Shown here piece by piece: positions 6,764 to 34,390 of a stretch of 34,390 nucleotides of DNA (position 1 is its first letter; each line of letters starts with the position of its first letter). A program made the position numbers and the translations under genes. The stretch spans positions 1 through 34,390 of the forward strand of contig DAHXLC010000026.1 in assembly GCA_027371815.1 (NCBI GenBank), in the 5' to 3' direction. This DNA comes from Candidatus Melainabacteria bacterium (GTDB lineage: Bacteria; Cyanobacteriota; Vampirovibrionia; Obscuribacterales; JAKAZS01). Under the pieces are notes generated by a model. The model ran no database searches and was not told the DNA's origin. It saw only the letters and a list, made by a program, of their open reading frames with translations.

Positions 6764-6787
6764 CAGGCTCTAAGGAGACTACCCAAA

Positions 6788-7753
6788 ATGTTAAATCTAA
6801 AATTACTTAATGCTTCATTACTTGCAGTTGTTGTAAGTTCTTTCATTGGTCAATCAGTTTTTGCCCAAAGCATAACTGATCCAACGACCCCACTTATTCC
6901 TGGTGCGTTAGGCAGTGGGCCGTTTATTCCGCCACCACAAGGAGCGCCACCAGCGCCAGGTGATGGCTCAACACCACTACCAGTAACGCCAGGCATGGGC
7001 GGCCCATCGACACTTTTACCCTGGGTACCAGCTATGCCAGCTAACTCCATCGATTCACTCAATTCAGGAATTCCACTGCCAGTTGGCCCACCAGTAGCTA
7101 CACCGCCTGGAGTGTTAGGCCCGATGTTAACTCCTTTTATACCCGGACCAGCTTCAACGCCTGGACCTAATCCAGGATCCTTAATGACTCCTTTATTAGA
7201 TAATGGTGGCCCTGGCGATTTTAATGCAGCTCAAGGCACTTTAGTTAATCCTGGTGGCGGCTTACCAGGAATGGGTGGCTATAATACAACTATAAACACC
7301 ATTCGCCGTGGTGGTCAACAAACCCATCAATGGGAATTACGTGGCCGCAATGCTGGTATGATTCCAGGATCGGGAGATGGCAGTCAAGGTGAAGTTGAAG
7401 AACTTGGTCCATATGCTGGTTGGGGTGTCCCTTTTGGTGTACCAACCGGTGATGGTCTACGCAACAGCTCTATTGACTTAGGCGGTGGTATGCAAATGAA
7501 AGTTGGTGGTGTAACGGTACCAACTGGCAATACCATATTAGATTATGGAACCAATGCCATGCGTGGTAATCCGATAATGGGTCTAGGTGCTCAACGATCT
7601 TTTGATTTTGGCCAAGGCTTTAGAAATAATGGTATTTACAGTAATGCTACTACTGATTATGGCTTTCCTTATCAACAATTTAATCCGGCTAACGTAGGAC
7701 CTCAAGCAACTGGTCAATTACTGCAACCAACAGCAATTGAAACCAATTTCTAA
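6788..7753 (+). CDS. Exported Pro/Gly-rich protein, paralog B
   Basis: Signal peptide ending 'SVFAQSITDPTTPLIPGALGSGP'; 'GGGLPGMGGYNTTINTIRRGGQQT'. RBS-like AAGGAG upstream. Confidence 0.78.
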   Translation: MLNLKLLNASLLAVVVSSFIGQSVFAQSITDPTTPLIPGALGSGPFIPPPQGAPPAPGDGSTPLPVTPGMGGPSTLLPWVPAMPANSIDSLNSGIPLPVGPPVATPPGVLGPMLTPFIPGPASTPGPNPGSLMTPLLDNGGPGDFNAAQGTLVNPGGGLPGMGGYNTTINTIRRGGQQTHQWELRGRNAGMIPGSGDGSQGEVEELGPYAGWGVPFGVPTGDGLRNSSIDLGGGMQMKVGGVTVPTGNTILDYGTNAMRGNPIMGLGAQRSFDFGQGFRNNGIYSNATTDYGFPYQQFNPANVGPQATGQLLQPTAIETNF

Positions 7754-7882
7754 ATCAAGTGTTAAAGATAAGGGGGGAATTTACGTAAGCCAATGGGAAT
7801 TCTCCCTCTTGTCCAAGACTCAAGTATTCAACTATTATTCAATCATGTTCAAGTTTCAAAGATTTTTTTAGGATTTAAGTAA

Positions 7883-8512
7883 ATGACTAAGGTTTTAAAA
7901 ATAAATAAAATTTTCAAATTAATAAGTTTAAGCCTTATAGTTCTTTTAACTTCATTAAATCTTAATCTTAAAGTAATGGCACAGCAAGGTATCCCTAATA
8001 ATGCCCCAGGTATTACCAATAACCAAGTAAATGCTTATGTTAATCCTTATATAAACAATAATTCAGCTAATAATCTTCAATCGGTTCAATCTTTTCGTCA
8101 ATCAACCTTTAATTATTTAACCAATAACCCAAATTTAACTAATAATCTTATGAATAATTCAATACCCGTAAATACTGTAAATAATAATTTAAACAATTCC
8201 TTACCAAACCCAACTGGTTTGCAACAATATAATATTGCCATGCAACCACATTTTGATCAGTCCAGTATCGCCATGCCTAATGCCAATGCTCCTGAGACCC
8301 AAGTTTTAAGCGCTGGAGTACAAACTCAAGTAATTAAAACCAGTACCAGAAGATCCGGATTCTCTAATATTTTAAGTGCTGTTGCCGGATTTGGTTTTGG
8401 ACCGATGCTTTATAGTACATCAATTCGACCTAATTATGGAAATCCTTTAGGACTAGCCTTTCAAGGTCTCGGGTATTCTGGTTTTGGTACTAGAAATGGC
8501 TTTAGATATTAA
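7883..8512 (+). CDS. Exported Asn-rich hypothetical protein
   Basis: Signal peptide 'LISLSLIVLLTSLNLNLKVMAQQ', a poly-Asn-rich middle, and a Gly/Phe C-terminus. Confidence 0.7.
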   Translation: MTKVLKINKIFKLISLSLIVLLTSLNLNLKVMAQQGIPNNAPGITNNQVNAYVNPYINNNSANNLQSVQSFRQSTFNYLTNNPNLTNNLMNNSIPVNTVNNNLNNSLPNPTGLQQYNIAMQPHFDQSSIAMPNANAPETQVLSAGVQTQVIKTSTRRSGFSNILSAVAGFGFGPMLYSTSIRPNYGNPLGLAFQGLGYSGFGTRNGFRY

Positions 8513-8536
8513 GCTTAATTTACAAAGGTGAAGAAT

Positions 8537-9202
8537 ATGAAATACCGTTTATCAATTACCCTACTTTCCACAATACTTTCAATAGTTTCATTTAATTCAG
8601 CTTATGCTGGTGAAGCTGGTGGAGCCAGATTTAGTTTTGCCCCAAATGTCTGGGGCGGTGGGGTTAAATCAGCTGGCACTCCAGAACCACCAATAGTTCG
8701 CAAGAAAGCAGTAGCGATATGGCATCCCGTGCAAGTTGCCAAACGCGCTCCCAGCGTCCCCCACGATGCTTCGTTCTTAGGCTTAGACAACGAGGTTTTA
8801 GCGAATCGCGTACCACAGGTATCTACGGCAACACAAGTAGCTATAGCACCAACTTATGCTCAAGTATTGCCACAAATGACAGCCAAGCCAATGAACGGTG
8901 CCTTTAAATCAGCTTTTGGCAAGCCTATAGGATGCACCCCAGCTCCGCAAATTGCTGTAGCTCATAGTTTACCTGTAGCTCCTGTAGCCATTCCATCTGT
9001 CAGTGCTCGTTTAGCCTCTAAACCAGCTATTCGACACTATAATAACAGTCGACCTATGCAAGCTATTGCCAAGAGCCTGAATAGTAGTAATGACAGTTAC
9101 GGCAAAAACTTTGGTTATGTCCCGCAAGCTGGAATATATAGTGGTGATGGTCAACACGTATCAACCAGTACGCAAGTACATGCTCAAATTATCAAACATT
9201 AG
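8537..9202 (+). CDS. Exported hypothetical protein
   Basis: Signal peptide 'MKYRLSITLLSTILSIVSFNSAYAGEAGG'. The ORF-track start (8528) is a GTG overlapping the RBS 'AAAGGTG'; the ATG at 8537 is preferred. Confidence 0.72.
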   Translation: MKYRLSITLLSTILSIVSFNSAYAGEAGGARFSFAPNVWGGGVKSAGTPEPPIVRKKAVAIWHPVQVAKRAPSVPHDASFLGLDNEVLANRVPQVSTATQVAIAPTYAQVLPQMTAKPMNGAFKSAFGKPIGCTPAPQIAVAHSLPVAPVAIPSVSARLASKPAIRHYNNSRPMQAIAKSLNSSNDSYGKNFGYVPQAGIYSGDGQHVSTSTQVHAQIIKH

Positions 9203-9273
9203 AACTCTTTTATAACTTACATTCGTTAAATTAAATTAAATTATATAACACACATTACTGGAGGTAATAAATC

Positions 9274-9705
9274 ATGGTAACCACAATTAAAAATACAACT
9301 AAGAAACTTCTTGCTTCACGCATGTTCAAGGTTGCCGCTCGAGTGGGTTTCCTCCTTGCGCCACAACTAGCCTTACTGGCACTTGGTGTTTATGACCAGG
9401 CCGTACACGCTCAAGGCTTAGTCGGAGCACCGGTCGATCCTCGCTATGGGCAATCCAATGAAGTCGGTCAATTAGCTGACTTTGGCTATGATACAGCTCG
9501 TGATATTTCGCGTGTAGTAACTGCCTTATCGACAATTCCTTCATCAATGGCCGGGATGAAAATAGCCTTTGGTCAAAGAGATGGTGGAGAATCCGCAATG
9601 AACGTAGCTAAAGGACTAGGGATTGGATTTGGCGGGCCAACAGCCGTCCACTTAATCGGGACGTTCGCAATCAACAACTTCGGTGGACTTGGTGGTGGTC
9701 TCTAA
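9274..9705 (+). CDS. Small exported protein with two hydrophobic segments, possibly VirB2/TrbC pilin-like
   Basis: RBS 'TGGAGGTAATAAATC ATG'; signal peptide ending 'AVHAQG'; hydrophobic segments around 'VVTALSTIPSSMAGMKIAFG' and 'GLGIGFGGPTAVHLIGTFAI'. It sits directly upstream of the VirB6-like gene. CDS is strong; the pilin assignment is weak. Confidence 0.65.
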   Translation: MVTTIKNTTKKLLASRMFKVAARVGFLLAPQLALLALGVYDQAVHAQGLVGAPVDPRYGQSNEVGQLADFGYDTARDISRVVTALSTIPSSMAGMKIAFGQRDGGESAMNVAKGLGIGFGGPTAVHLIGTFAINNFGGLGGGL

Positions 9706-9729
9706 ACAAAAGGGATTAGTTTTTAATTA

Positions 9730-9772
9730 AAAAAATGTCGATATCTTTTAATTCAAGATATCGACATTTTTT
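9730..9772 (+). terminator. Intrinsic terminator or attenuator hairpin
   Basis: Perfect 18-bp inverted repeat AAAAAATGTCGATATCTT / AAGATATCGACATTTTTT with a 7-nt loop and a terminal T-run. The symmetric A-run allows bidirectional action. Confidence 0.85.
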
Positions 9773-9866
9773 AACTTGAAGTGGGAATTTCCCCAATGAC
9801 AATTAATAATCTTTTAGTTAAACTAAGATCAATAGAATATATACCCATATTTAACTTTATCAGGCT

Positions 9867-12800
9867 ATGCAAAAATTCGCCAAACAAATAATAATCATAA
9901 GCTTATTCCTCTCCACTATTTTTCAAGCGGGAATAAATATCAGTGCTTTAGCCCAAACGTCAGAGCCACCACCTGGATATGGAATGAATAGCGGTGAGGC
10001 CATACCCACAGGAACTGCCGCTCAAACCCAGCCAACCGATCCGGCCAGCCCCTACTATAATCCTCAAACGACTCTAATTCAACAAGCTGCCGAACAAAAT
10101 GCCTATGGCACGATGTCCCAAAATGTGAATAATTTACTGGTTGGTAACACCTATCTTAATCAATATAATTCAACCTATTTAGGACTTCATGCTTTTTTTG
10201 GCAATGACATTGTCGGCAATTTATTTTCCAATATTGGTCAGTTATTTGGCAAATGGTTAACTGAATTAATTGATGGTTGGGTAGCCCAGGCCGCTCAGTT
10301 TTTAACTGCCTTTTTAAGAACTTTTGTCTTAAATCCTAACATTGCCGTAAACGGAATAGCGACGATTCCTGGAGGCCCAACTACTAATGATGGTATTAGC
10401 CAATACATCCGTGAAGGCGCCAATGTCATGTATGGTATTGCTATTGATTTATTATTACTGTTATTTATTTTATGTATCTGGCGCTATTGGGTAGATGCGG
10501 CCTGGAGAGGTAATAACAATTTAATGGGGGCTGTCGGTCGACTTATATTCACTTCAGGTCTACTTTTAGCCTGGCCAACCTTATATGCTTTTGAGATTCA
10601 AATCACTAATGAAATGATTAAAGCCATTTACTTTGATTCAACTTCACAGGTTTTAATGCTAGATTCAGCTATAGCAGCAGCAATCAAAGGCGGTTTAGTG
10701 GCTGGTGGCAGTTTATTAGTTAATGCCTTTGCTCCAGTATTAGGAGCAACCCTTGGTGGTGTTGCGGCTGGATCAATTGGTGGTGTTTTAGCTGGGGGCG
10801 TTGGTGAAGTAGTATCATATGCAGCTTTAGTTATATATTTAATTCTTGGTGTTGCTTTAATTTCCCAATTAATCTATATTTTAGTCTTAAAAGCTATTCA
10901 AACAGCCTTATTAACAGCTCAATATATGTTTGCGCCAATATTTCTAGTATTTATGGCCACTCCCGATACCGAAAACATTGCCAGTGGCTTTATTCGCTCT
11001 TTTGTTGAAGTTAGTCTATGGACATTTGTCTGGGTTGGTTTATTAAAAGTATTAGTTATTATTATATTTTCAGGCTATAATCCCTGGGGACAAATTGTCT
11101 TATGCGTTGGTGTTTTACAAATAATGATTCAAGTCCCTTCATTTTTATCTAGAGCCCAAATTAGCCCTATGTCCGATTATATTTCTGCCGGCATGGTAAC
11201 CGGTGGTCTTGTATCAATGGCTCAATCCATGGGCAAAGCAGCTCGCGCTCGCACCGGTCAATTTTTTGACTGGTATACCAATCAAAGGTTTGCAGCTGCT
11301 GGCATGCCTCAATCCCAAACTGTAGATTTAAATAATTTACCTAATGGCGTATCTAATCCTGGACTTTTAAATAATATCAGGGACAGATCAAGAGGTAAGG
11401 ATCCCAATAAAGGTGGAGATGGCGGTGTTAATCTTGGTGATGGCAAAGGTGTCGAATTTCCCAAAGACGCTAATGGCAATCCTATTAAACCACCACCAGC
11501 GGTAAAAACACCAACCAAACCAGGTCAAGGTGGCAAAGATGGTAATAAAAAACCAACTGGCACCGAAAATACGGATAATCCTAATGGTAAAAATGTCAAT
11601 CCAATTGATCCAAATGCCGCCAAAAAACCTGGTGAAAATCCAGCCAGTGCTGATGGTAGTAAACCAAACAATTTAAATGCGGCTGGAAACAAGGCAAATT
11701 CAAGTTCTACTGGAACCGCTGCTACTAGTATTGCTACTAGCGATGGCAAAACCAATTCGGTTTCATTGCCAGGTAGTCCAGTTTCAAGTCCGGTTAATAG
11801 TAGTAAAACTGGAACAGAATTAAATTCAGCTAATGGTACTAATAATGCTAAGGCGGGTAACAGCAGTAGCCTTAATTCAAATACCGCCAATATAACCACA
11901 CCAGTTACACCACCAATTAAAACTCCAACTAAGCCAGGCAATCCAACCAGTCAAGATCCTAATGCCAGCAAAAATATTAATCCGGCTGGTGCTAATAACG
12001 GCAAAGAAGATGGTAAAACAACTAACGCCAATTTAACGAATGAAGAAAGTAAAAATATTACCGGACTTAATGCCACTGATAAAAATGGTGTAACCAGTGA
12101 TGCCAATGCAAAAACTACCGGCAAAGATACCGCACCCAATGCTCAAGCTATTGAATCAGGAAAAACAAATACTAACGCTAATTTAACTAATGGCGCTACC
12201 GACCCTAGTAAAATTTCTTCAAGTAAAAATCCATTACTTGGCCCAGATGGCAAACCACTTGGCAGTTTAGCTAATGGCGCTAACAATAATCCAACTAATA
12301 ATCTCAATGGCATTGGCAACGCTACCCAAACTACCGTTCCACCTGTTAAAACCAGTCAGACCCAAAAAGCTAATACTGATAAAGCTAATGGTGGCACAGC
12401 TAAACAAGATGTCGAATCCGAATTACACACTCAATTAGATCAAAATGGACAACCAATTACCTTAGATTCTAACCTTAAACAACAACCAGGTCAAACCAAT
12501 GCTACTGGTAATCTTAATCCAACAACCGGTAAAATTGATACAACCGGCAGCCAAAATGCTAAGGGTTTACAGCCACCCAATGGCCAGCCCTTGCCAATTA
12601 CTCCAAATACGCAGTCGTTAAGCAACTTAATGGCGGACTTAAAAACTCCCGTATTAGGTAATGGTGTTACCCTACCTAATATCAGTAACGGCCAAACGGC
12701 TAAAACTACGGCCATTGGTAATGGTGCTAATAATACCGCTCGACAAGAATTAGATACTCAAGTATTTCATCTAAATGATGAGAATGGCCGACCGGTAACA

Positions 12801-15338
12801 GTTGAAACTAGTCTTAAACCAGCGGCAAGTCAAGTCAACAATACTACCACTAATCCTCAGCTTCAACAAGGCAATGTCAATATTAGCAATGGTCAGGCAA
12901 CTAATCCAGCGGCAACGAATCCTTTCACCGGCAACCCCACGCCAATGCTCGGCAATATTAATCCTAATATAATTACACCATTAACGGGCAATAATTTAAA
13001 TACTCAAGGCAAAATGCAAAGTCAAAATGGAGTTCAAAATTTAAATCAAGGTAATGGCAATCAGCCAAATCAGCAAGCCGAAACCGAATTAAATGTTGCT
13101 GTCAATCAAGGTAATGGACCAAATATTGTTGACAATAATATCCGCCTGCAGGGAATTTCTTCAGGCACCCCAATGTCCGGTAGCCAAGCCGGCAATGTTC
13201 AGTTTAACAATGGTAATACTGTAAGTCACAGTAATTCTAGCTTACCTGGAGCTAATCTAGCCACCAATATTCCAATAACACCACCAGTAGCAATTCCTGG
13301 CTCGCGTTCCTTTAATCCTGGAAGCAATTGGACTGGTACGTCTCGAGCTATAGCTGGTGGTTTAAGTGATGTTGCTATTGCTAACGGTAATGTTGATGCC
13401 ACCACCACACCAACATTTTCAAATTATCAAGATGCCCCTTCAATTTCTGATCCAATATTAAAAAATAATGTTAATGATGAATCAGTTCGACCAGCACAAA
13501 TGTTTACCCAGCCTAATTACATGCATGTATTACCCAGAGGCCTAGCTACTGATATTAGAACTGCTCAAGGTCCAACTCAGGAAACATCACCAACCGGCCG
13601 TCCTAATATTGTTGGTAATGGCAAAGGTACAGTTAATCACATCCGTTATGGTGCTAATGCTACCCGTGAACAAGAAGCAATGCAAATGTATGTAGCTGGT
13701 TACGCCGGAGCCTTAAACAGTGATTCAGAAGCCTATGATGCAGCTCGTCAATCAGCCATAACGGCTGGTGAAGATGGTCCACAAGGCGCCATGGAAAATG
13801 CCGCTGCTGGTTTTATGGCGTTTAGTGGTGGTAATTTTAGACAAACAGCTTTAGCTAAACAAAGATTCCAACGATCCTTATTTAAACATGCTGTCTTAGG
13901 CTCCGAAGCCTATGTATCCGGTCAAAGTGGTAATGCCTATACTGAATATTTACGTGTACGCTATGGCTCGATGACTCCAGATAAACAGGCCTGGTCAACC
14001 CATATTATGACCGATCCTGAATCTCCAGAATCAGGCTGGAGTGGTGACAACGGACCAGCAACCGACACCTTGCTTAATGCCGGTATTCCTATTACCGAAC
14101 CAGCCAGAGCCGCAGCTGCTAATAAGAACCTAAGAAAACTACCCATGTGGGCTAGAATTCCAGCTATCAAAGGTCTGGTAAATTATGAACAAGCTGTAGT
14201 CGATAATATGGCTGGCGCAAATGCTCACCCCATGGAAAAAGCTGCCCTGGTTGGTCATATTGGTCCAAATATTAAAGCCCCTGAAGTTGGTGCCGTTACG
14301 GCCATATATAGTGAATCGGCTACACCTGATGAAGATACTGGCAATATTGATTTAGTTCAAGAAGTTGCTCGTTTAGGTTCAACACCAATGTATAATGGCG
14401 ACTATGGCCGCGCCTATAAAAATATTCGTGCGATGATTGGTCATATGGGTAGTAGCGGTGGCAGTAGACATGCAGCCATGTCACCAATGACAAGCGCTCC
14501 CATTGGCATGAATCCATCAATTGGTGGTGGCAATGGTGGCTCTGCCCCAGCCCCCAATATCAGCTACAGCCAACCAGCCAATGGCTTAGGATCTGGCAAT
14601 GGTGGCGAACAAACAGTTATGTTAAACTTTGCGGACGAAGCCAATAACCTTAGCCCTAGTACTGGTAATTTAGGTAATATAACTGGTAATTTTGGTCAAT
14701 CAATTATCGGCCAACCGCAAGTCAATTATGTGACCAGACAAAATGGCGGTAATAGTAACGGTCAAACGCCAAGAGTGCAGGAAGTAAATGTGACTAATAA
14801 GGCTCAAGCCTATAGCCCCAATATTTCCGAAAGTGATATTGCTCATCAAGTAAGTAAATCTGGTGCTGATTTAAGCGCTAGAATTCACTCAGCCTCACAA
14901 ATTATTATGAATTTACACAATGCTGGTTTTAGCAATAATGAATTAGCCCATCCACAAATAGCTCAAACTGCTTATGAAGTACATAACAGCGATCCATCCA
15001 TGCTTTATAGCGCTAGTATTGCTTCGCGGGTTTTAGGTCCAGCTAATTTCACACCCCAAACCGTTCAAGTTGTACAACAAATGATTGATTCAGGTTGGTC
15101 TGGTGAACAAATTTCACGACCTGATGTTATAACAGCGCAAAGTATTATGAGTAATTCAGGCTCCAGTATTGCCCCAAGCCCACGTATAGTACAAACATTA
15201 CGTCGTGATCCACGCTTTCAGCCATCAATGAATTCCTTTATTCCAAATGATCTTTTAAAAGATCTCGAAAATCAAAATAATTATGGACGCAATAGTTTTG
15301 GTGGACGCAATAATGGCCAAGGACGCAATAACTTTTAA
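9867..15338 (+). CDS. Giant protein: TrbL/VirB6-like multi-TM N-terminus, long Asn/Gly/Thr/Pro low-complexity middle, helical C-terminal region
   Basis: Signal peptide 'ISLFLSTIFQAGINISALAQ'; five or more TMs between about aa 180 and 430, including 'AIQTALLTAQYMFAPIFLVFMATPDTENIASGFIRSFVEVSLWTFVWVGLLKVLVIIIF'. Low complexity about 11300-13500. CDS is certain; the family call is inference. Confidence 0.75.
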   Translation: MQKFAKQIIIISLFLSTIFQAGINISALAQTSEPPPGYGMNSGEAIPTGTAAQTQPTDPASPYYNPQTTLIQQAAEQNAYGTMSQNVNNLLVGNTYLNQYNSTYLGLHAFFGNDIVGNLFSNIGQLFGKWLTELIDGWVAQAAQFLTAFLRTFVLNPNIAVNGIATIPGGPTTNDGISQYIREGANVMYGIAIDLLLLLFILCIWRYWVDAAWRGNNNLMGAVGRLIFTSGLLLAWPTLYAFEIQITNEMIKAIYFDSTSQVLMLDSAIAAAIKGGLVAGGSLLVNAFAPVLGATLGGVAAGSIGGVLAGGVGEVVSYAALVIYLILGVALISQLIYILVLKAIQTALLTAQYMFAPIFLVFMATPDTENIASGFIRSFVEVSLWTFVWVGLLKVLVIIIFSGYNPWGQIVLCVGVLQIMIQVPSFLSRAQISPMSDYISAGMVTGGLVSMAQSMGKAARARTGQFFDWYTNQRFAAAGMPQSQTVDLNNLPNGVSNPGLLNNIRDRSRGKDPNKGGDGGVNLGDGKGVEFPKDANGNPIKPPPAVKTPTKPGQGGKDGNKKPTGTENTDNPNGKNVNPIDPNAAKKPGENPASADGSKPNNLNAAGNKANSSSTGTAATSIATSDGKTNSVSLPGSPVSSPVNSSKTGTELNSANGTNNAKAGNSSSLNSNTANITTPVTPPIKTPTKPGNPTSQDPNASKNINPAGANNGKEDGKTTNANLTNEESKNITGLNATDKNGVTSDANAKTTGKDTAPNAQAIESGKTNTNANLTNGATDPSKISSSKNPLLGPDGKPLGSLANGANNNPTNNLNGIGNATQTTVPPVKTSQTQKANTDKANGGTAKQDVESELHTQLDQNGQPITLDSNLKQQPGQTNATGNLNPTTGKIDTTGSQNAKGLQPPNGQPLPITPNTQSLSNLMADLKTPVLGNGVTLPNISNGQTAKTTAIGNGANNTARQELDTQVFHLNDENGRPVTVETSLKPAASQVNNTTTNPQLQQGNVNISNGQATNPAATNPFTGNPTPMLGNINPNIITPLTGNNLNTQGKMQSQNGVQNLNQGNGNQPNQQAETELNVAVNQGNGPNIVDNNIRLQGISSGTPMSGSQAGNVQFNNGNTVSHSNSSLPGANLATNIPITPPVAIPGSRSFNPGSNWTGTSRAIAGGLSDVAIANGNVDATTTPTFSNYQDAPSISDPILKNNVNDESVRPAQMFTQPNYMHVLPRGLATDIRTAQGPTQETSPTGRPNIVGNGKGTVNHIRYGANATREQEAMQMYVAGYAGALNSDSEAYDAARQSAITAGEDGPQGAMENAAAGFMAFSGGNFRQTALAKQRFQRSLFKHAVLGSEAYVSGQSGNAYTEYLRVRYGSMTPDKQAWSTHIMTDPESPESGWSGDNGPATDTLLNAGIPITEPARAAAANKNLRKLPMWARIPAIKGLVNYEQAVVDNMAGANAHPMEKAALVGHIGPNIKAPEVGAVTAIYSESATPDEDTGNIDLVQEVARLGSTPMYNGDYGRAYKNIRAMIGHMGSSGGSRHAAMSPMTSAPIGMNPSIGGGNGGSAPAPNISYSQPANGLGSGNGGEQTVMLNFADEANNLSPSTGNLGNITGNFGQSIIGQPQVNYVTRQNGGNSNGQTPRVQEVNVTNKAQAYSPNISESDIAHQVSKSGADLSARIHSASQIIMNLHNAGFSNNELAHPQIAQTAYEVHNSDPSMLYSASIASRVLGPANFTPQTVQVVQQMIDSGWSGEQISRPDVITAQSIMSNSGSSIAPSPRIVQTLRRDPRFQPSMNSFIPNDLLKDLENQNNYGRNSFGGRNNGQGRNNF

Positions 15339-22509: not shown

Positions 22510-25500
22510 TTAAATAACACTTTTAAACAATTCGTTAGCTGAAATAGCTTTATCACCAATGCGATTAAATTTAATCCCCCATTGATTGGTTACTTCAACT
22601 TTAAGACTTGGTGGATTGGTCGCCATATCCTCAATAATATTATCAATTAATATCACATGCGTACTATGACTAGTTCGGCTTGGCCCAAACAGACTTTCAT
22701 TGGAATTAGCGTCTACTAATAAGATAATCGGGAAATTACCTTTATAATTTTTTAACGTGGTAGTAAAATCTTCTGGGGTACGAGCCGCTAAGATTTTACC
22801 AGCTTGAATGTCCTTAATATAAGTACCAAAGTATTTGGGACCAATTAAGACAAAGCCCTTATCTATGCCTTTATTAACATAACCATCAGCGTCAAGATGA
22901 GGAACAATTAAATTATAAATGTCCGCTAATTGTACTGTATTAATAGCTGGCTGAGTTCTTAATTGCTGATCGAGAACCTGATTATTATTTAAATAATAAA
23001 GCATTAATCGTTCACCAGTATCACCAGGATCGCCTGGAACAGGCTTGTCTTTAATATACTGAATCAAACCTTGAGCATTTGGATCAAGCGCCTTAAGCTC
23101 GGGTAAAGATGCTTCACTATAATGTAAATTCACCGCAGCAATCTGAAAAATTTGATTGGCAAAATTACGATAACCATCAAGTTTGATATCCTTAAATAAA
23201 CTAGGATCAAATTGATGATTTAAAACAGCCAGAGATTCTTGATCTGGGCGTAATCCCTTTGATCTTGCCACATCAATAACTTTACCAGTAGGCGAAATTA
23301 CTTTACCATTTATCGCCGTATCCGCAATGAGTTTAGCTGCATATTGGGGAGATTTAGTATAAACTCTAGCTTCAACAGTTGTAACATTACAGGTATTGTT
23401 TCCACCCTGATCAATTGTATGGGGAAAAGCCGTATTTAACAGTATTTGCTCGGCTAATTTACCACGAATATTTTTATCCAAATAACTTTCCGATCCTGCA
23501 CGTAACATTCTATTTATATGATGAATTGTATTAGCAATGTTAATATCATTAAGGCCATTTTTGCGCATAGTTTTAAGCGCATTATCCTTTAATAAAATCA
23601 AGCGATCACGACGAGCGGTATCACCAAAATAATGATCGCCTAAAGCTTTTAAAATACTGGTTTCACTAGCCAAATTACTCGATATGGCTGAACTATAGCC
23701 ATTAGCAAATAAATATTCCTTACTGCCATCAGTACCGTGAATAATTCTTAGACCTGGCTTACTGTTTAAAATTAAAGATCCATCATTACCAAGCGAAACA
23801 TAACCCTTCCATTCTTTAGGTTCAAATTTAGGATTGCCATCTTTATCAAAATATTTAATTTGCCAACGATAATTATCCGGTGAAGTCAATTCCATAGTGT
23901 AGTTATTATTATGATTTATCGTAACTTTTTGTAAGGTATTTTGAGGGCTAATTTCATAGTTAAGGGAAAAATCATTTGGGCCAAAAGCTTTAATAATCTG
24001 TCCCTGGGCATTAGCAAAATATCCAGTTTGGGCAATATCTTCAAATTTACTGTTACCAGTTTGACTAAAAATTAAATTATTATTTTGTCGATTATAAACA
24101 ATATTACCATTTTCTAACTTGTAACCATTAACAATTTTAAGCCTTAACAATGGCCCATCTTCACTAGCTAAATGAATTTCATCGCTAGGTGAAACAATTT
24201 TACTGTCACCTTTATTTAATTTTAGCCATTCATTATTTTGATTTTTTATATAGGTTCCATTAGTAGAAGAATCAGTATAGATAAACTGATTATAATTATG
24301 ATCGTAAGTAATTTTACCATGTTCATGACTGATAGTTTTGTCGAGCAAATCACTTTCACCTTTAGGAAAGAGTTTTGACCCAATGCTTGCACTACCATCA
24401 GTTAAATTAATTGGCCGCCCATTAAAAAAAACTTCTGGAATATTTGTTACCTGCGACTTAAATAGGTCAATTTTTGGACCATCCGGATTTTCGAGATGTA
24501 ATTCACTATTAGGGGTAATTTCCAGACTTCGATTAGGCGTTAGCGCAATATTAAAACCGGTTGAACCGTCCGGTTTAATATACACTGGCTTATTAAATTT
24601 ATTAGTAAATGTTAATTTACCATCATTAAAACTAATCATACTTCGAGCCTGGTATTCGGCAGAATTACCCGAACTATTTAAAAGCTTATCGGATTGAGGT
24701 AATTTGCCATCAATAAGCACATGGGCAACTTCATTAAAATCAGATAGTTGCGGAGCTTGGGCAAAAACTTCTTTTGCAAAAGTCGGATCAATCGGATAAA
24801 TTGGCGGGCGAATTGCATTAGGATAAGCCTGTTCAGCATTTGGCCAAAATGCCTGCAAATCATTTTGCGCTGGCTTAATATTTATAAGAGAATTAATTTT
24901 TGAATGATAGTCTTGAATTTTCGCTTTAGTTTCACCCATAATACCAAAACCAAGGCTAAACAAGCCCATTGTATAAGCCTGTTGGAAAAGATCTTGACTT
25001 GAGGCTAATTTGCCAGTATTAAAGTATGCATTAGTTTCTGTCCCCAGGATACTACCTGGCAATGAAGCTAATACTGAATTGCTTAAATTATTAGTAAAGA
25101 CTTTACCCATTACTGTCGATTCAAGCGCAGCCGTTTTAGCCAAACTACTTAAAGCAAGACTGGAGGCTGTCATAGTTGAAAACATCAAACTTGAGCTTAG
25201 GCCACTTTCCAAACGTTGACCTAAAAAATCAGTTAAATTCTGCTTGTTATGGCTTTGACCGGGCGTTAAAACAGCTCCATAAGTAAATCCAGTCAGGGCT
25301 GATTCTTTAAGGCTTAAACCCAGCGCCGAATTTGCGCCAGGGTCAACAGCCAATTTGCTTAAAGTTAAACCAATAGAATTAGCTTTAGCAAAGCCAAACG
25401 TATCCTGATTAATCGGCATCAATGCTTTACTAGCAAATTCACTTGAATTTAATTTCAAACTCAAATCTTCAGTTTTACTAAATTCTAAAGCGGTCTTATC

Positions 25501-25893
25501 TAAATTGGTATTAATTAAACTATCCTTAGCTAAATTACCAACAGTAACATCTTCAGCCAAAAATTGTGATCCAGATCCAAGACCATATTTTACAACGCCA
25601 CTAGTAAGCATTAACGGTAACAACATCCCCAAAGCCTGACCACTTTGGCTAGCATACCAAGAAGCCGTACCAAATTTAGCTGATTGGGGCTGAGTTATAA
25701 ACTGTAAATGCTTGTCTAATTCCGTGCCGGTAGTTTTATCAATTAACTGAACAAGACCGTTTACCGGCTCTTGCAAACCTGAATACACTAACGAATTACC
25801 AAAATCCTTTAATAAACTTAAAGTTTTGGAATTAGGTTTAACATTTTGAGCATTAAACTTGTCAGGTTTTACGAATTTAGCTACATTTTCCAT
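22510..25893 (-). CDS. FHA-domain protein with C-terminal putative papain-like cysteine peptidase domain
   Basis: FHA signature 'GSKLFPKGESDLLDKTISHEHGKITYDHNYNQFIYTDSSTNGTYIKN'. C-terminus has 'IDQGGNNTCNVTTVEARVY', 'HSTHVILIDNI' and 'VEVTNQWG', resembling papain-fold QG...C, H and N..WG motifs. CDS and FHA confident; peptidase is inference. Confidence 0.85.
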   Translation of the reverse strand: MENVAKFVKPDKFNAQNVKPNSKTLSLLKDFGNSLVYSGLQEPVNGLVQLIDKTTGTELDKHLQFITQPQSAKFGTASWYASQSGQALGMLLPLMLTSGVVKYGLGSGSQFLAEDVTVGNLAKDSLINTNLDKTALEFSKTEDLSLKLNSSEFASKALMPINQDTFGFAKANSIGLTLSKLAVDPGANSALGLSLKESALTGFTYGAVLTPGQSHNKQNLTDFLGQRLESGLSSSLMFSTMTASSLALSSLAKTAALESTVMGKVFTNNLSNSVLASLPGSILGTETNAYFNTGKLASSQDLFQQAYTMGLFSLGFGIMGETKAKIQDYHSKINSLINIKPAQNDLQAFWPNAEQAYPNAIRPPIYPIDPTFAKEVFAQAPQLSDFNEVAHVLIDGKLPQSDKLLNSSGNSAEYQARSMISFNDGKLTFTNKFNKPVYIKPDGSTGFNIALTPNRSLEITPNSELHLENPDGPKIDLFKSQVTNIPEVFFNGRPINLTDGSASIGSKLFPKGESDLLDKTISHEHGKITYDHNYNQFIYTDSSTNGTYIKNQNNEWLKLNKGDSKIVSPSDEIHLASEDGPLLRLKIVNGYKLENGNIVYNRQNNNLIFSQTGNSKFEDIAQTGYFANAQGQIIKAFGPNDFSLNYEISPQNTLQKVTINHNNNYTMELTSPDNYRWQIKYFDKDGNPKFEPKEWKGYVSLGNDGSLILNSKPGLRIIHGTDGSKEYLFANGYSSAISSNLASETSILKALGDHYFGDTARRDRLILLKDNALKTMRKNGLNDINIANTIHHINRMLRAGSESYLDKNIRGKLAEQILLNTAFPHTIDQGGNNTCNVTTVEARVYTKSPQYAAKLIADTAINGKVISPTGKVIDVARSKGLRPDQESLAVLNHQFDPSLFKDIKLDGYRNFANQIFQIAAVNLHYSEASLPELKALDPNAQGLIQYIKDKPVPGDPGDTGERLMLYYLNNNQVLDQQLRTQPAINTVQLADIYNLIVPHLDADGYVNKGIDKGFVLIGPKYFGTYIKDIQAGKILAARTPEDFTTTLKNYKGNFPIILLVDANSNESLFGPSRTSHSTHVILIDNIIEDMATNPPSLKVEVTNQWGIKFNRIGDKAISANELFKSVI

Positions 25894-26146: not shown

Positions 26147-28411
26147 ATGTCCTGGCGTTGGAAATTAGCAGTTTTAATCGTTTTATTTCTTGGCTTTTCT
26201 ACCCTAATTTTTATGGCGCATGAGACAACTACACAAGCTCCAGTTATTCCGGATAAAGTAACCGACAAAACGGGAAACCTGCTTTTCACTGGTCAAGATA
26301 TTTTAGCTGGACAAGCAGTCTTTCAAAAATTTGGTTTAATGGATGTTGGCTCCATTTTTGGTCATGGGGCTTATAACGGACCAGATTTTTCAGCTGATTA
26401 TCTCCATCGCGAGTCGATAATCGGCCTTAATAATTTAAGTAATTTTAAATATCATTTAGATTTTGCTAATTTAGACAAACTTAAACAAGTCGAAATCAAA
26501 GAAAAATTAACAACTGAATTTAAACAGAATAATTATAATCCTGTCAGTAAAACCTTACCTTTTACTAATAATCAGGTGTCAGCCTACCAACAATTATTAA
26601 ACCATTATGATACTGAATTTACGAGTGCTCAAAAATTACCCTTACCCCTTAACTATATAAGTAATGGTAAAGAGCGAATTCAATTAACCCGCTTTTTTGC
26701 CTGGGCAGCCTGGGTCTGTTCAACCAACCGACCAGGTAAAACCTATACCTATACCAATAATTGGCCAAGTGAAGAATTAGTTGGCAATAAACCACATTGG
26801 CCAATTTTTTTCTGGTCAGCCATGAGTTTAATTATGCTTGTTGGTGGTATTGGCTTAACCCAGTTTCTCATGCAATCTTCGCCTGGATTAGGCTGGATGC
26901 CGGACAGCAGTACTAGTAAAATTGATGACAATGTTAAAGATTTTAAACCCTATCCCTCGCAAAAAGCATTATATCCTTATTTTGTAGTAACAATTTTACT
27001 TTTTTTATTCCAAGTTACTTTTGGTGTGGTGACAGCTCATTATATTGTTGAAGCTTCGGGTTTTTATGGATTTGATATTCGAAGTATCTTACCCTATAGC
27101 ATAACCAGAAGTTGGCATTTACAATTATCCATTTTTTGGATAGCTACGGCCTGGTTAGCTGGCGGCATGTTCATTGCGCCATTATTATCGAAACATGAGC
27201 CTAAATATCAAAATATCCTAGTTAACATTTTATTTGTCGCTATTGTTATTGTGGCTGTTGGTAGCATTACCGGCGAATGGCTCGGGATTAAAAATTATTT
27301 GGGAAATTTATGGTTTTGGTTTGGCCATCAAGGCTGGGAATATTTAGAACTAGGTCGGATTTGGCAAATTTTATTAACCGTAGGAATGGTGATTTGGGCC
27401 GTAATTATTTTCCGCAGTATTAAACCATTGCTGGTGGGCGAAGACCATGGCAGTTTACCTTATATGTTACTATACGGTGTTTTTGCCATACCATTATTTT
27501 ATAGTTTTGGCTTAATGTATAATCCAAGCACTAATTTTGCCATAGCGGACTTTTGGCGCTGGTGGGTAGTACATTTATGGGTAGAAGGTATTTTTGAACT
27601 TTATACCACAATTGTAGTAGCTTATTTCTTTTGCAGTTTAAAAATGGTATCACAAAAATCAGCTCTAACTGTAATATATGTCGACATCATTCTTTATTTA
27701 GGCAGTGGTATTGTTGGTATTGGTCACCATTATTATTGGACGGCTCAACCAGCCATTAATATGGCTTTAGGTTCAATGATTTCAGCTTTAGAAGTAGTAC
27801 CTCTAACCTTATTAACAGTCGAAGCCTGGAAATTTATTGAATTAGCTAAAGTTAATGGCTCAATAAAGAATTTTTCCCATTATTGGGCAATGATGTTTTT
27901 AATTGCTGTTGGTGTCTGGAATTTTGTCGGTGCTGGTATCTTTGGTTTCCTGATTAACACCCCAATTGTAAGTTATTACGAACATGCAACCTATCTTACA
28001 TCCAACCATGGCCATGCAGCTCTTATGGGCGTATATGGGATGTTAGCTATTGCCGCAATTTTATTTTCTGTACGTTATTTAATTAAAGAAGAAGCTTGGA
28101 ATAATAAATTAATTGGTATTTCTTTCTGGAGTTTAAATATCGGCTTATTATTAATGCTCGTATTAAATATCTTTCCAGCTGGGCTTGATCAAATGTTTGC
28201 TAGCTATACGCAAGGCTTTTGGTATGCCCGCTCCTATGAATTCACTCATTCAACCCTATTCCAAACCTTTACCTGGCTGAGGGTTATTGGTGATGTCACC
28301 TTTATAATGGGCGGGGTATTGCCTTTAGTCTATGTAATTTTAACCGGAATATTTAACTTACGACCATCTATAACAATAAATAGGTCAGAAAAAGAATTAT
28401 GCATTAAATAA
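26147..28411 (+). CDS. norZ: Quinol-dependent nitric oxide reductase (qNOR)
   Basis: N-terminal qNOR extension 'QDILAGQAVFQKFGLMDVGSIFGHGAYNGPDFSADYLHRE'; catalytic-subunit motifs 'RSWHLQLSIFWIATAWLAGGMFIAP', 'WWVVHLWVEGIFELYTTIVVAYF', 'GIGHHYYW', 'SNHGHAALMGVYGMLAI'. RBS AAGGAG. Confidence 0.95.
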   Translation: MSWRWKLAVLIVLFLGFSTLIFMAHETTTQAPVIPDKVTDKTGNLLFTGQDILAGQAVFQKFGLMDVGSIFGHGAYNGPDFSADYLHRESIIGLNNLSNFKYHLDFANLDKLKQVEIKEKLTTEFKQNNYNPVSKTLPFTNNQVSAYQQLLNHYDTEFTSAQKLPLPLNYISNGKERIQLTRFFAWAAWVCSTNRPGKTYTYTNNWPSEELVGNKPHWPIFFWSAMSLIMLVGGIGLTQFLMQSSPGLGWMPDSSTSKIDDNVKDFKPYPSQKALYPYFVVTILLFLFQVTFGVVTAHYIVEASGFYGFDIRSILPYSITRSWHLQLSIFWIATAWLAGGMFIAPLLSKHEPKYQNILVNILFVAIVIVAVGSITGEWLGIKNYLGNLWFWFGHQGWEYLELGRIWQILLTVGMVIWAVIIFRSIKPLLVGEDHGSLPYMLLYGVFAIPLFYSFGLMYNPSTNFAIADFWRWWVVHLWVEGIFELYTTIVVAYFFCSLKMVSQKSALTVIYVDIILYLGSGIVGIGHHYYWTAQPAINMALGSMISALEVVPLTLLTVEAWKFIELAKVNGSIKNFSHYWAMMFLIAVGVWNFVGAGIFGFLINTPIVSYYEHATYLTSNHGHAALMGVYGMLAIAAILFSVRYLIKEEAWNNKLIGISFWSLNIGLLLMLVLNIFPAGLDQMFASYTQGFWYARSYEFTHSTLFQTFTWLRVIGDVTFIMGGVLPLVYVILTGIFNLRPSITINRSEKELCIK

Positions 28412-28439
28412 TACTAGTAAAAAATCAAAAGGAGTAATT

Positions 28440-28886
28440 ATGATAATTTCACAAACACTTGAATATGCCCTGCGTGCCGTTGTTTTTATTGCTAATGGCC
28501 AAGAGCGATCCTATACCACCGCCCAAATAGCCAAAACCACAAAAGTTCCTCAGGCTTATTTATCTAAAGTATTGCAATCACTAGTCAGAGGTAATATAAT
28601 CCAATCACAACGTGGTTTTGGTGGTGGTTTTATCTTAGCCAAAAACGCCAATGAAATAAAAATATTAGATATAGTAGCAGCAGTTGATCCAATGGAACGG
28701 ATTCACACCTGTCCACTAGAATTAGCTACCCATGGATCAAATTTATGCAGCCTGCATAAAAGACTGGATGATGCTATAGCCACAATGCAAACCACTTTTT
28801 CAGGCACATCAATTACGCAAATCGTAAGCCAAGAAAATGCCATATTACCAATGTTTGAATGTCCAAAGCTTGAAGATGTTTCGTAA
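28440..28886 (+). CDS. Rrf2-family transcriptional regulator (copy 1)
   Basis: 'MIISQTLEYALRAVVFIANG...AQIAKTTKVPQAYLSKVLQSLVRGNIIQSQRGFGGGFILAK' winged helix; metal-site region 'CPLELATHGSNLCSLH'. Confidence 0.93.
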   Translation: MIISQTLEYALRAVVFIANGQERSYTTAQIAKTTKVPQAYLSKVLQSLVRGNIIQSQRGFGGGFILAKNANEIKILDIVAAVDPMERIHTCPLELATHGSNLCSLHKRLDDAIATMQTTFSGTSITQIVSQENAILPMFECPKLEDVS

Positions 28887-28961
28887 TTACCAAGGCTTAA
28901 AAGTAAATTCAGGGGTAACCTATTAAGTAAAAAATCAAATAAAGAAGGATTCAAATTCATT

Positions 28962-29408
28962 ATGATAATTTCCCAAACACTTGAATATGCCCTGCGAGCG
29001 GTGGTTTTTATTGGCAGTGGTAATAACACACCATTTACCACATTACAGATATCACAGGCAACTAAAGTGCCTCAGGCTTATTTAGCTAAAGTATTACAAT
29101 CACTAGTAAAAGAAAAGATTATTCAATCACAACGTGGTTTAGGCGGTGGATTTATTTTAGCTAAAGAGCCTGCAAAAATTAAAATTTTAGATATAGTTAC
29201 GGCTGTTGATCCTATAGAACGAATACTTACCTGCCCACTTAAACTAAAGTCACATGGAAGCAATTTATGTCGGTTACACCAACAACTTGATGATGCCATT
29301 GCTTTAATTGAATCAACCTTTAATACCAGCACCATAGCCGATTTAATAAACAAACCTACTACAGTCAAGCCTTTATGTGACTTTCCTAATCAAAAAATTA
29401 TTTCTTGA
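28962..29408 (+). CDS. Rrf2-family transcriptional regulator (copy 2, tandem paralog)
   Basis: 'MIISQTLEYALRAVVFIGSG...KVPQAYLAKVLQSLVKEKIIQSQRGLGGGFILAK'; 'CPLKLKSHGSNLCRLH'. The first ~50 nt are nearly identical to copy 1. Confidence 0.93.
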   Translation: MIISQTLEYALRAVVFIGSGNNTPFTTLQISQATKVPQAYLAKVLQSLVKEKIIQSQRGLGGGFILAKEPAKIKILDIVTAVDPIERILTCPLKLKSHGSNLCRLHQQLDDAIALIESTFNTSTIADLINKPTTVKPLCDFPNQKIIS

Positions 29409-30872: not shown

Positions 30873-31214
30873 TTACTTGCTGATTTTACTCGTATAAAAC
30901 TTCAATCTAATTGTTTCTAGCGTTATTAAACCGTCTTTGACTACTGAATCAATTACCGGTAAAAAATTTTCAATATTTTTAATCGTATCATTAAATTCAA
31001 TAATAATTGGTAAATCAGTAGACAAACTTAATATTTTTGCACTATGAATTTGACTATGCGATCCATAACCTTCCATACCCCTAATAACAGTTCCTCCAGC
31101 TAATTTAAATTCGATAGCTCGTTTTAAAATCCACTCATATAATGTCATATGATCATGCCGGTCACTTTCACCAATAAAAATTTTTAATTTATAACCTTCA
31201 ATAAAATCACCCAT
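30873..31214 (-). CDS. DUF190 family protein
   Basis: 'YKLKIFIGESDRHDHMTLYEWILKRAIEFKLAGGTVIRGMEGYGSHSQIHSAKILSLSTDLPIIIEFND'. ATG at 31214 lies just after the CrcB stop (ORF-track start 31223 is a TTG). Confidence 0.9.
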   Translation of the reverse strand: MGDFIEGYKLKIFIGESDRHDHMTLYEWILKRAIEFKLAGGTVIRGMEGYGSHSQIHSAKILSLSTDLPIIIEFNDTIKNIENFLPVIDSVVKDGLITLETIRLKFYTSKISK

Positions 31215-31216
31215 AA

Positions 31217-31588
31217 TTACCAAATCCTCGATAAAATATAACCTAACCAGACAAAAACATAGCCTAAAACAATGTGCGTTATAACATTAATTAAAGCATA
31301 ATAAAATTCACTACTTTTCATTAACTGAAACGTTTCAAAGCTAAACGTCGAAAAAGTCGTATAACCACCTAAAAAGCCAATAAAGACCAAAGCGCGCAAA
31401 GTATCATTAAATAAACCTTTGTTTTCAGCTAAGCCTCCTAACAAGCCTATAATAAAACTTCCCGTCACATTAACAACTAACGTACCTAAAGGGAACGGGA
31501 TGCTAACTATATTTTGAATATTTTTAGCAATAAAAAATCGTGTCATCGATCCAACACCACCACCAATAAATATCATTAACCAATTCAT
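31217..31588 (-). CDS. crcB: Fluoride channel CrcB/Fluc
   Basis: 'GGGVGSMTRFFIAKN', 'PLGTLVVNVTGSFIIGLLGG', 'GFLGGYTTFSTFSFETFQLM'. Confidence 0.96.
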   Translation of the reverse strand: MNWLMIFIGGGVGSMTRFFIAKNIQNIVSIPFPLGTLVVNVTGSFIIGLLGGLAENKGLFNDTLRALVFIGFLGGYTTFSTFSFETFQLMKSSEFYYALINVITHIVLGYVFVWLGYILSRIW

Positions 31589-31589
31589 A

Positions 31590-32936
31590 TTAATTCGACC
31601 TTATATTTGCTTTAACACTAGTTTCAATTTTGTCTAAATCATTTAAATAATTAGTATAAGTCATTCCCGGCAAATTATTAATTTTTTTGTTTTTAAAATA
31701 ATCTATCTGACTTATAGATAAAAAGCGTAAATTGTCAACCATAGCTATCCCCGTCCCACAAATAAAAGGGATACTACCATCAGCAACTAATGTTTGCGCT
31801 TCTTGGGGGTGACGATAAAATTTAAAGCCAGCTAACATACCACAAACCCCTAAAGCTATTTTAGTACTACCAACAATTGTAGCAATAGGAATTTGAATAT
31901 GTGCCAATCTTTTATTTTTTTCATTTTGCTTAATTATTTTATTTAAATCTCCTTGTAAAAGAAATTGTTGCTGTTTGTAAAAAGTCAACCTGGACTTTAA
32001 TGATTGGTTGATGGCTTGATCTTGGGGGTGTTTGGCAACCATAACGATTAAACTATTTAAATTATTATTAAATTGATTTAGTTTATTTTGAAAATCAATT
32101 ACTTCAAGTTCTTTTAATTGATTTTTAACAATAGTTTTAACGATAACTCGATTAACTCTACTAACTATGGGACCCAAAATAATTAAAACACCAGATAAAG
32201 TAGTTAATAAAAAAGCCGGCCCATTTATTTTTGGATTTCGATCATGAACTGAAATTATCCCAAGCAGATTACCTAAGGCACCAGTCGTATTTTTTAAACT
32301 ATCCATCACAAACATTGAATTCTGAAATATATTAAAAGCTTTGGTTTGAAGATGAAACTGATTATACTGACTAATTAAAGCCTGTTGCAAAGTTTTTTGA
32401 ACGTTAACTTCCTGTACCTGTATTGGATTGCTATTTTTCAAATTCAATTCTTGGCCTAATAAGTTTAATTCATTATTTAAATTATTAACATGTTTAATGG
32501 CAATTTTAGGAATAATGTTTTTAGTTTTTAAATTATAAAATTTTTTAGTTTTTAAAAACAATTCATAAACTGGTTCAATACCACCAACAAACTGTCCAAT
32601 CATTTGCGGCATTAAAGAATATTCTAAAGTTACCGGATGTATTTTAGCTGGATTATTTAAATGCTGTTCCCGAGCAACCAAACCCACAATTAAACCAGCA
32701 TTTACTCCAGCAGCACTAGCCTCTTGACCGGCAAAATAGCGATAAGGTAACCAATTACTTTGCCGGTTATTTTCATAATTAAATAATAGATTAAAACGAG
32801 ATAACTCAATTTCTTTAAGTACTATTTCATTAAATGACTTTTCTTGCTCGAAATTTAAATTGTCTTGACTAGCCCAAGACCAAGAATTTAAATTTAATAA
32901 AACAAGTAATATTAATACTTGGGTAATTTTATTCAT
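31590..32936 (-). CDS. Uncharacterised exported/multi-TM protein, first gene of the fluoride-riboswitch operon
   Basis: Signal peptide 'MNKITQVLILLVLLNLNSWSWA'; hydrophobic segments 'AFLLTTLSGVLIILGPIVSRV' and 'IPIATIVGSTKIALGVCGMLAG'; coiled-coil-like central stretches. The ORF-track start 32954 is a TTG; the ATG at 32936 precedes the signal peptide. Confidence 0.8.
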   Translation of the reverse strand: MNKITQVLILLVLLNLNSWSWASQDNLNFEQEKSFNEIVLKEIELSRFNLLFNYENNRQSNWLPYRYFAGQEASAAGVNAGLIVGLVAREQHLNNPAKIHPVTLEYSLMPQMIGQFVGGIEPVYELFLKTKKFYNLKTKNIIPKIAIKHVNNLNNELNLLGQELNLKNSNPIQVQEVNVQKTLQQALISQYNQFHLQTKAFNIFQNSMFVMDSLKNTTGALGNLLGIISVHDRNPKINGPAFLLTTLSGVLIILGPIVSRVNRVIVKTIVKNQLKELEVIDFQNKLNQFNNNLNSLIVMVAKHPQDQAINQSLKSRLTFYKQQQFLLQGDLNKIIKQNEKNKRLAHIQIPIATIVGSTKIALGVCGMLAGFKFYRHPQEAQTLVADGSIPFICGTGIAMVDNLRFLSISQIDYFKNKKINNLPGMTYTNYLNDLDKIETSVKANIRSN

Positions 32937-32995
32937 GAACACGCCCTTACTCAATATGCATACGATAAATTAAACACATACAACCAGTTAAATTT

Positions 32996-33050
32996 TCTAG
33001 GAGTTATCAGCCGAGTAAGGCGGTTAAAAGTGAACCCCATCACTTAATAA
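32996..33050 (-). ncRNA. Fluoride riboswitch (crcB motif RNA) aptamer
   Basis: Minus strand: TTAAGTGATGGGGTTCACTTTTAACCGCCTTACTCGGCTGATAACTCCTAGA. P1 AAGTG/CACTT around loop ATGGGGTT; P2 GCC/GGC followed by conserved CTGAT; pseudoknot loop GGGGUU with 3' AACUCC (one G-U). It lies about 60 nt upstream of the operon's first ATG. Confidence 0.92.
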
Positions 33051-33122
33051 AATAATACCAAATCTATGTTATTTTGACAAGAAGCTAAAAGTTCAAGTAA
33101 TTGACAACTAAAACTAACTGTT

Positions 33123-34390
33123 TTAATAAATACTTTTAAATAAATCCTTAGCTAATACTGCCTTATTACCCATATGATTAAATTTACTGCCCCATTGATT
33201 GGTAAATTCCACTTTTAGGTTAGAATCTTTGCCTGTGGAATCGACTTTAATATCATGCAAGACAACAACATGGAATTTATGACCACCGCGATATGGCCCA
33301 AATATTCCTTCATCAACAGATGTATCTATTGATGCAATGAGCGGAAACATTTGTTTTTCTTTAGCATATTGAAGAAATTTTTCAAAATGACTGCTTTCAT
33401 TAGTATAGGAAACTGAACCATTTTTAAGCGAGTCTACTATTAATGGTGCAACGTTTTTACCTACCACCACAAAGCCCTTATCTTGACCAATATGGGGCTG
33501 ATCGTAATTATCATATGCTGGTACCAGATGATTATATAAATCAACCAGACGATGTGAATCGATATATGGTGAATCTTGAATTGTTTTTAATTCTAATTTA
33601 TGCATAGCGTTTAACGAATAAATCTGTAATTTTTCACCAGTATCATTTGGTCGAGTTGGATCTGGTACCGTTTTACTGTATTGAATAATATCTTCTGGCT
33701 TAGCTTGAGTTAAGGGAAAAATATTATAATAAATGTTAACAGCTGCGTTTTGGAATATTTGATTAGCAAAATTACGTATTCCATCAATTTTTATATCTTG
33801 ATATGGCAATAAATCATGGCTAGAATCGAAACCATTCCCTAAAACATCTAAAGATTCTTGATCTGGGTCTAAGCCACCACTGCGACCAATATCAATAACT
33901 TTACCATCAAAGGTAATAGTCTTACCATAGATAGCTGCATCAGCAATTAGTTTAGCCGCTTGCTGAGGCGATCGTTCGTAGACTCGAGTTTCTATAGTAG
34001 TTACATTACAAGTTTTATTATTACCTTGATCAATTGTTTTCGGGAAAGCTGCGTTAAATAATACCTGTTCAGCAAGCCTTGATCTTATTGGCTCTGACAG
34101 ATATCCTTCTGATCCACTAGCCAATAAGCGATTTACATGATGAAAAGTTAAGGCAATTTCATTATTACTAAATTGTTTTTGTTGCCCATATTCAATAAAA
34201 CTATCCATCAAATCATGAAATCTTGACTGCTGATCAAGATCACCAAATTTAGTAGCAATCAAACCTTCTAATATTGCTACCTGCGTATCTAAATTAGCTT
34301 TTTTCACATCAGTGAAACCGTTTTTATAAATTTTTTCTTCGCTACCATCCAGCCGTTGAATAAGTTTGTCACCATTATTACTTTCTAAAA
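33123..34390 (-). CDS. Paralog of the FHA/papain-like protein, 5'-truncated by the right window edge
   Basis: 'IDQGNNKTCNVTTIETRVYERSPQQAAKLIADAAIYGK', 'KFHVVVLHDI', 'VEFTNQWGSKF' align with the 22510-25893 protein. The frame stays open to the window end (LESNNGDKLIQRLDGSEEKIYKNGFTDVKKANLD), so the GTG at 34307 is not a convincing start. Confidence 0.85.
   Translation of the reverse strand, partial: LESNNGDKLIQRLDGSEEKIYKNGFTDVKKANLDTQVAILEGLIATKFGDLDQQSRFHDLMDSFIEYGQQKQFSNNEIALTFHHVNRLLASGSEGYLSEPIRSRLAEQVLFNAAFPKTIDQGNNKTCNVTTIETRVYERSPQQAAKLIADAAIYGKTITFDGKVIDIGRSGGLDPDQESLDVLGNGFDSSHDLLPYQDIKIDGIRNFANQIFQNAAVNIYYNIFPLTQAKPEDIIQYSKTVPDPTRPNDTGEKLQIYSLNAMHKLELKTIQDSPYIDSHRLVDLYNHLVPAYDNYDQPHIGQDKGFVVVGKNVAPLIVDSLKNGSVSYTNESSHFEKFLQYAKEKQMFPLIASIDTSVDEGIFGPYRGGHKFHVVVLHDIKVDSTGKDSNLKVEFTNQWGSKFNHMGNKAVLAKDLFKSIY

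Follow-up and report, generated by a model that had tools for sequence, protein, structure and literature searches.

The fluoride channel gene crcB of the Obscuribacterales genome analysed here belongs to a real three-gene operon that is very probably controlled by fluoride, and its first protein was recruited, in this genus only, from a family that is undescribed and restricted to the order. The co-regulation of the gene for this 448-aa protein with crcB and DUF190 is well supported; what the protein does is the part that we infer. The operon lies in the window, that is, the whole stretch of 34,390 nt of DNA that was analysed, on a contig that is part of a 2.77-Mb draft genome (76% complete) in which a single copy of crcB was found. 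Gene order and aptamer were obtained by computation: on the minus strand, a promoter-like site is followed by the fluoride aptamer, the 448-aa ORF, crcB and DUF190, and the gaps downstream of the aptamer are 54 nt to the ORF, 1 nt to crcB and 5 nt to DUF190.

33052..33080, minus strand: promoter-like site, TTGTCA-17-TATTAT, sigma-70-like with 10/12 consensus matches, just upstream of the aptamer
32991..33053, minus strand: fluoride riboswitch aptamer RF01734, 47.6 bits against a gathering score of 34
32936..32990, minus strand: predicted expression platform, a leader whose Shine-Dalgarno GAGTAAGGGCG is complementary to the aptamer's CGCCTTACTC (folding and duplex energies)
31590..32936, minus strand: 448-aa exported all-helical protein, a paralog within an Obscuribacterales-only family
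31217..31588, minus strand: crcB / Fluc fluoride channel, 123 aa, PF02537, E=2.1e-28
30873..31211, minus strand: DUF190 (COG1993) protein, 112 aa, PF02641, E=3.2e-34

The aptamer is the sole Rfam match above threshold within the window and aligns to the full model (positions 1-64, E=2.3e-10); by this covariance-model score it is a member of RF01734, and its binding of fluoride and its switching are predicted. The initial annotation had placed a crcB-motif aptamer directly upstream of the first ORF and not at crcB, and the covariance search of the minus strand, with its match above threshold at 33053-32991, bears this out. The start codon chosen at that stage, ATG 32936, stands as well, with the ORF running from there to the stop at 31590; the length of 454 aa does not, as 448 aa are read from this ATG and 454 aa only from an in-frame TTG at 32954. 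A Shine-Dalgarno-like GAGTAAGGGCG lies just upstream of the ATG. The close spacing that had been described is confirmed too, the crcB ATG (31588) coming 1 nt past the ORF stop and the DUF190 ATG (31211) 5 nt past the crcB stop. The assignment of CrcB/Fluc covers the full length of PF02537 (model positions 1-103 of 103; 99.1 bits against a cut-off of 32.9), and that of DUF190 reaches 117.5 bits against a cut-off of 23.4 for PF02641. A terminator between the ORF and crcB had been named as the kind of evidence that would speak against a single transcript; the hairpin scan returned no terminator-like site between the three genes, and its sole terminator-like hairpin is located within the ORF (32880-32862), a count equal to the chance expectation. 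The promoter-like site, recognised by consensus match alone, is also present in G002, another genome of the genus. The tight junctions and the occurrence of the arrangement in all three genomes of the genus thus sustain the original proposal that the three genes form one fluoride-controlled unit.

Several other features of the window deserve mention in their own right. Two proteins encoded on the minus strand at 22510-25893 and 33123-34388 have similar C-terminal halves with no Pfam match there; the longer one has an FHA domain, and the one at 33123-34388 is cut by the contig end. On the plus strand, 26147-29408 encodes a nitric oxide reductase of the quinol type (NorB) and, behind it, two tandem, mutually similar Rrf2-family regulators. 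Also on the plus strand, the genes at 5948-15338 encode a series of exported, proline/glycine-rich proteins that seem to belong to a secretion or conjugation-type system; the last of them, 1,823 aa long, lacks a Pfam match and has hydrophobic segments close to its N-terminus.

All three genomes of the genus that were examined (the analysed genome, G001 and G002) have the order riboswitch-ORF-crcB-DUF190, and in G001 and G002 too the ORF is preceded by RF01734. The ORF of G002 is 96% identical to the analysed copy and is separated from crcB by 1 nt, and that of G001 is 57% identical, with a gap of 39 nt. Because the genes past DUF190 in G001 are unlike those in the analysed genome and G002, the conserved block is the operon itself and, given its retention in both other genomes of the genus, the arrangement is more than chance. 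In the genus comparisons, the computed dN/dS values are 0.129 and 0.225 for the ORF vs 0.075 and 0.102 for crcB, so that the 448-aa ORF is under purifying selection (dN/dS 0.13-0.23).

At which level did the ORF join the operon? In the order as a whole, crcB was found in 47 of the 53 genomes, with one match each, and DUF190 follows it in 35 of the 43 loci that were retrieved with a readable crcB ORF. In the riboswitch-crcB loci outside the genus (L063, L064, L068 and L069), the aptamer sits directly on crcB with the ORF absent between them, and therefore the ORF is a genus-level insertion. Outside the genus, a family member occurs near crcB in only two genomes and in other arrangements: in G008 it is convergent, lies directly past crcB-DUF190 and shares a 4-nt overlap with an MgtE gene on its upstream side, and in G003 it is found about 3 kb downstream of crcB. 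The AU test rejects a clade uniting the window protein with the crcB-linked copy of G008 (p=0.0003), and likewise one that also includes the G003 copy (p=0.001); no riboswitches were detected beside the G008 and G003 crcB loci, nor at seven further paralog loci, the majority of which are linked to transporters. A member in G041 is near two riboswitches, divergent from the first and downstream of neither, and adjoins an ABC/HlyD/outer-membrane-efflux gene set and a DUF190 gene. So the insertion took place within this genus, and the cases of G008, G003 and G041 are independent events or chance.

Two of the loci encountered in this survey are of interest on their own. The gene set in G041 (L062, G041:C18:7766-13147), in which two riboswitches flank the ABC transporter, HlyD and outer-membrane efflux genes together with DUF190, with no crcB nearby, is a possible fluoride-induced three-part exporter. 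A stretch of about 60 kb in G006 (G006:C1:106949-168310; L059, L060 and L061) contains eight fluoride riboswitches above threshold, with TPR, MFS, ABC/HlyD export, universal-stress-like and enolase-like genes as neighbours, and is an unusually dense fluoride regulon.

A possible mode of switching is suggested by the leader. In the window and in G002, the aptamer's CGCCTTACTC is complementary to the Shine-Dalgarno GAGTAAGGGCG of the ORF, with calculated duplex energies of -16.8 and -15.2 kcal/mol (p=0.056 and 0.0625 against shuffled Shine-Dalgarno regions). The leader of G001 offers another pairing, between CCTACGA, located just after the 3' pseudoknot strand begins, and TCGTAGG upstream of the ATG (p=0.003). 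With either pairing, the start site would be blocked until fluoride folds the aptamer, which predicts a translational switch that acts on the ORF first; the switch has to be regarded as a prediction because the whole leader folds no better than shuffled sequence. A terminator-type expression platform was also considered, and none was seen on the terminator scan. The 1-nt junction between the ORF and crcB suggests translational coupling, and since crcB starts 1 nt after the ORF, crcB and DUF190 would follow it in this manner. Under the resulting scenario, the insertion of a copy of the Obscuribacterales family between the riboswitch and crcB-DUF190 would date from the ancestor of a single genus; as long as fluoride is absent, a section of the aptamer would base-pair with the first ORF's Shine-Dalgarno and keep translation low, and Mg-bound fluoride would fold the aptamer, free the Shine-Dalgarno and permit translation of the 448-aa ORF, after which crcB and DUF190 would be translated by coupling.

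So what is the first protein? It had been described as a protein with a signal peptide, at least two further hydrophobic segments and a coiled-coil-like middle that matches no recognised fluoride-resistance family; the analysis supports a helical protein with a signal peptide and without a match to any known family. The putative signal peptide, read from the sequence letters rather than by a dedicated predictor, is MNKITQVLILLVLLNLNSWSWA, and the AlphaFold2 model is all-helical (pLDDT 92.3, pTM 0.85). Neither the protein nor its family has a match in Pfam or PHROG or a significant match among PDB sequences, NCBIfam yields three single-member matches only (E=0.004-0.007), tblastn in plasmids and phages gave nothing significant, and the fold search found no PDB or viral fold resembling the model at E<=0.001. 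Homologs are present in all 53 Obscuribacterales genomes searched, in 1-9 copies each; none were found in seven genomes from other families of the class, and a search of 386 genomes of the phylum with the family alignment gave no match except in the window's own genome. The window copy matches the family profile over its full length (E=9e-145) and has the same helix plan as the model of a distant NarK-linked paralog; it is thus a member of the family of Obscuribacterales helical proteins defined here. The proposal of the initial annotation, a candidate new fluoride-response factor, is not supported in that form: by descent the protein is not dedicated to fluoride and is one paralog of an order-wide family, most copies of which are unlinked to fluoride genes and lie far from crcB and RF01734. 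The expected association of homologs with crcB holds for the three genomes of the genus, G008 and G003; among the 149 members examined, the majority lie away from crcB. This copy may plausibly serve in the fluoride response, but such a role would be specific to the genus. The helix lengths hint at three repeats (24-162, 171-302 and 307-447), each with a glycine-rich hydrophobic hairpin; internal triplication stays a suggestion because the profile comparison does no better than reversed controls (best forward pair E=7e-5, controls reaching 1e-4). It is uncertain whether the later helices enter the membrane, as their hydropathy is marginal for membrane spans.

Can the neighbours of the paralogs help in understanding the function of the family? 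Within 5 kb on either side of the 149 members, the same-strand neighbours at distances of up to 120 nt include SulP permeases (G004, G005 and G049), NarK-type porters (several genera), MscL, MgtE and bestrophin-like proteins, and one paralog adjoins an ACR3-type/arsenite-exporter-like SBF protein in an arsenic gene set that, except for SBF, is named by resemblance only. Most paralogs adjoin no transporter. Within 2.5 kb of members, NarK is observed 12 times vs 0.14 expected, SulP 7 vs 0.84 (P 3e-5), bestrophin-like proteins 3 vs 1.1 (P 0.1) and CrcB 3 vs 0.18, the last count amounting to two events because two of the three are genus-mates. The adjacency P values treat genomes as independent though they are related, and NarK, SulP and bestrophin were picked post hoc, so that the values for these families are leads, not tests. 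CLC anion channels, the class chosen beforehand, were observed 0 times vs 0.18 expected, and a general enrichment of polytopic membrane-protein neighbours is not significant (p=0.087). One clade of the family is located between NarK-type porters in what seem to be nitrate-respiration clusters of several genera (L141, L150, L199, L236, L247 and L214).

The hypothesis that we favour is that the 448-aa protein, exported by its signal peptide and, by virtue of its glycine-rich hydrophobic helices, most likely residing in or on the inner membrane, would support the ion-handling membrane protein that is made with it, here the Fluc channel. This reading in its entirety, namely a fluoride-induced envelope or inner-membrane accessory to Fluc whose ORF is switched on first, with crcB following by coupling, appears to us to be evenly poised; we are much more confident of the co-regulation than of the role. 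In its favour we count the RF01734 match, the 1- and 5-nt junctions, the gene order in three genomes, the purifying selection, the two different aptamer-Shine-Dalgarno pairings in the genus and the paralogs located by ion transporters; against it, we count the transporter-free majority of paralogs, the p=0.087 for membrane enrichment, the fact that CLC is never adjacent, the unremarkable folding of the leader, the p=0.056 for the pairing in the window, the marginal hydropathy, and the functioning of crcB without the ORF in nearly all relatives. A more general idea has mixed support and strikes us as rather unlikely: the family would be a hitherto unrecognised group of exported Obscuribacterales proteins that assist channels and transporters of inorganic ions, each paralog being produced together with its own partner (Fluc, NarK, SulP, ACR3-type, MscL, MgtE, bestrophin-like) and tuning its stability or activity, and the window copy being the partner of Fluc under the fluoride riboswitch.

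The ORF might instead encode a protein with a general task in the envelope stress response or envelope structure of Obscuribacterales, not specifically tied to ion transport, that was captured by the riboswitch and guards the envelope in fluoride or acid stress without touching Fluc. This would agree with an order-wide, multi-copy family that has such varied neighbours as Sel1, radical-SAM, complex I-like and aldo/keto reductase genes, and with the lack of general enrichment of membrane-protein neighbours; the retention of the tight crcB junction over long divergence and the excess of NarK and SulP neighbours over expectation argue against it, and we regard it as a serious, if doubtful, contender. 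It is improbable that the ORF was inserted by chance, plays no part in the fluoride response and is retained only as a leader or coupling device since its loss would disturb crcB translation: the arrangement is indeed limited to one genus, with three genomes known, and an intact reading frame would be important if the genes are coupled via their 1-nt junction, but dN/dS of 0.13 and 0.23 along the whole 448 aa indicates selection on amino acids, not merely on an open frame. Least credible is an ion conductor or pore beside Fluc, e.g. a second fluoride or counter-ion path, formed by six glycine-rich hydrophobic helices in three hairpins, as the helix plan of three long-medium-short units with such a hairpin in each might suggest, given that PDB has no channel or transporter match by sequence or fold, the hydropathy is marginal and the three-fold repeat is unsupported over reversed controls.

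Much of the knowledge of the fluoride response has been read from genes placed behind fluoride riboswitches. A protein of an undescribed family in the first position of a fluoride operon is a concrete handle on an order-wide family that is absent from the databases searched and, if the link to ion transporters is true, would represent a new type of transporter accessory protein. We found no literature linking DUF190 with fluoride. The long helices and hydrophobic hairpins are reminiscent of alpha-helical pore-forming proteins of the AhlB, SmhB and NheB type, with weak and insignificant matches; such an identity is not supported, as the best fold match of this kind has E=0.075 and a TM-score of about 0.1, and NheB is matched by 1 of 60 members only (E=0.007). 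The commonest partners of the fluoride riboswitch are fluoride exporters, followed by Na+/H+ antiporters (PMC11139923), and the additional genes known from fluoride operons encode enolase, pyrophosphatase, Na+/H+ antiporter, universal stress protein and cation transporters (in part after PMC11139923). The operon described here resembles the RF01734-crcB/Fluc operons in having the same aptamer, the Fluc channel and DUF190 in one transcription unit, and differs from them in the undescribed exported helical protein between the aptamer and crcB. Like the known extra members of fluoride operons, the 448-aa gene accompanies the exporter as a further gene controlled by fluoride, whereas its product, in Pfam, NCBIfam, PDB sequence and fold searches, resembles none of them.
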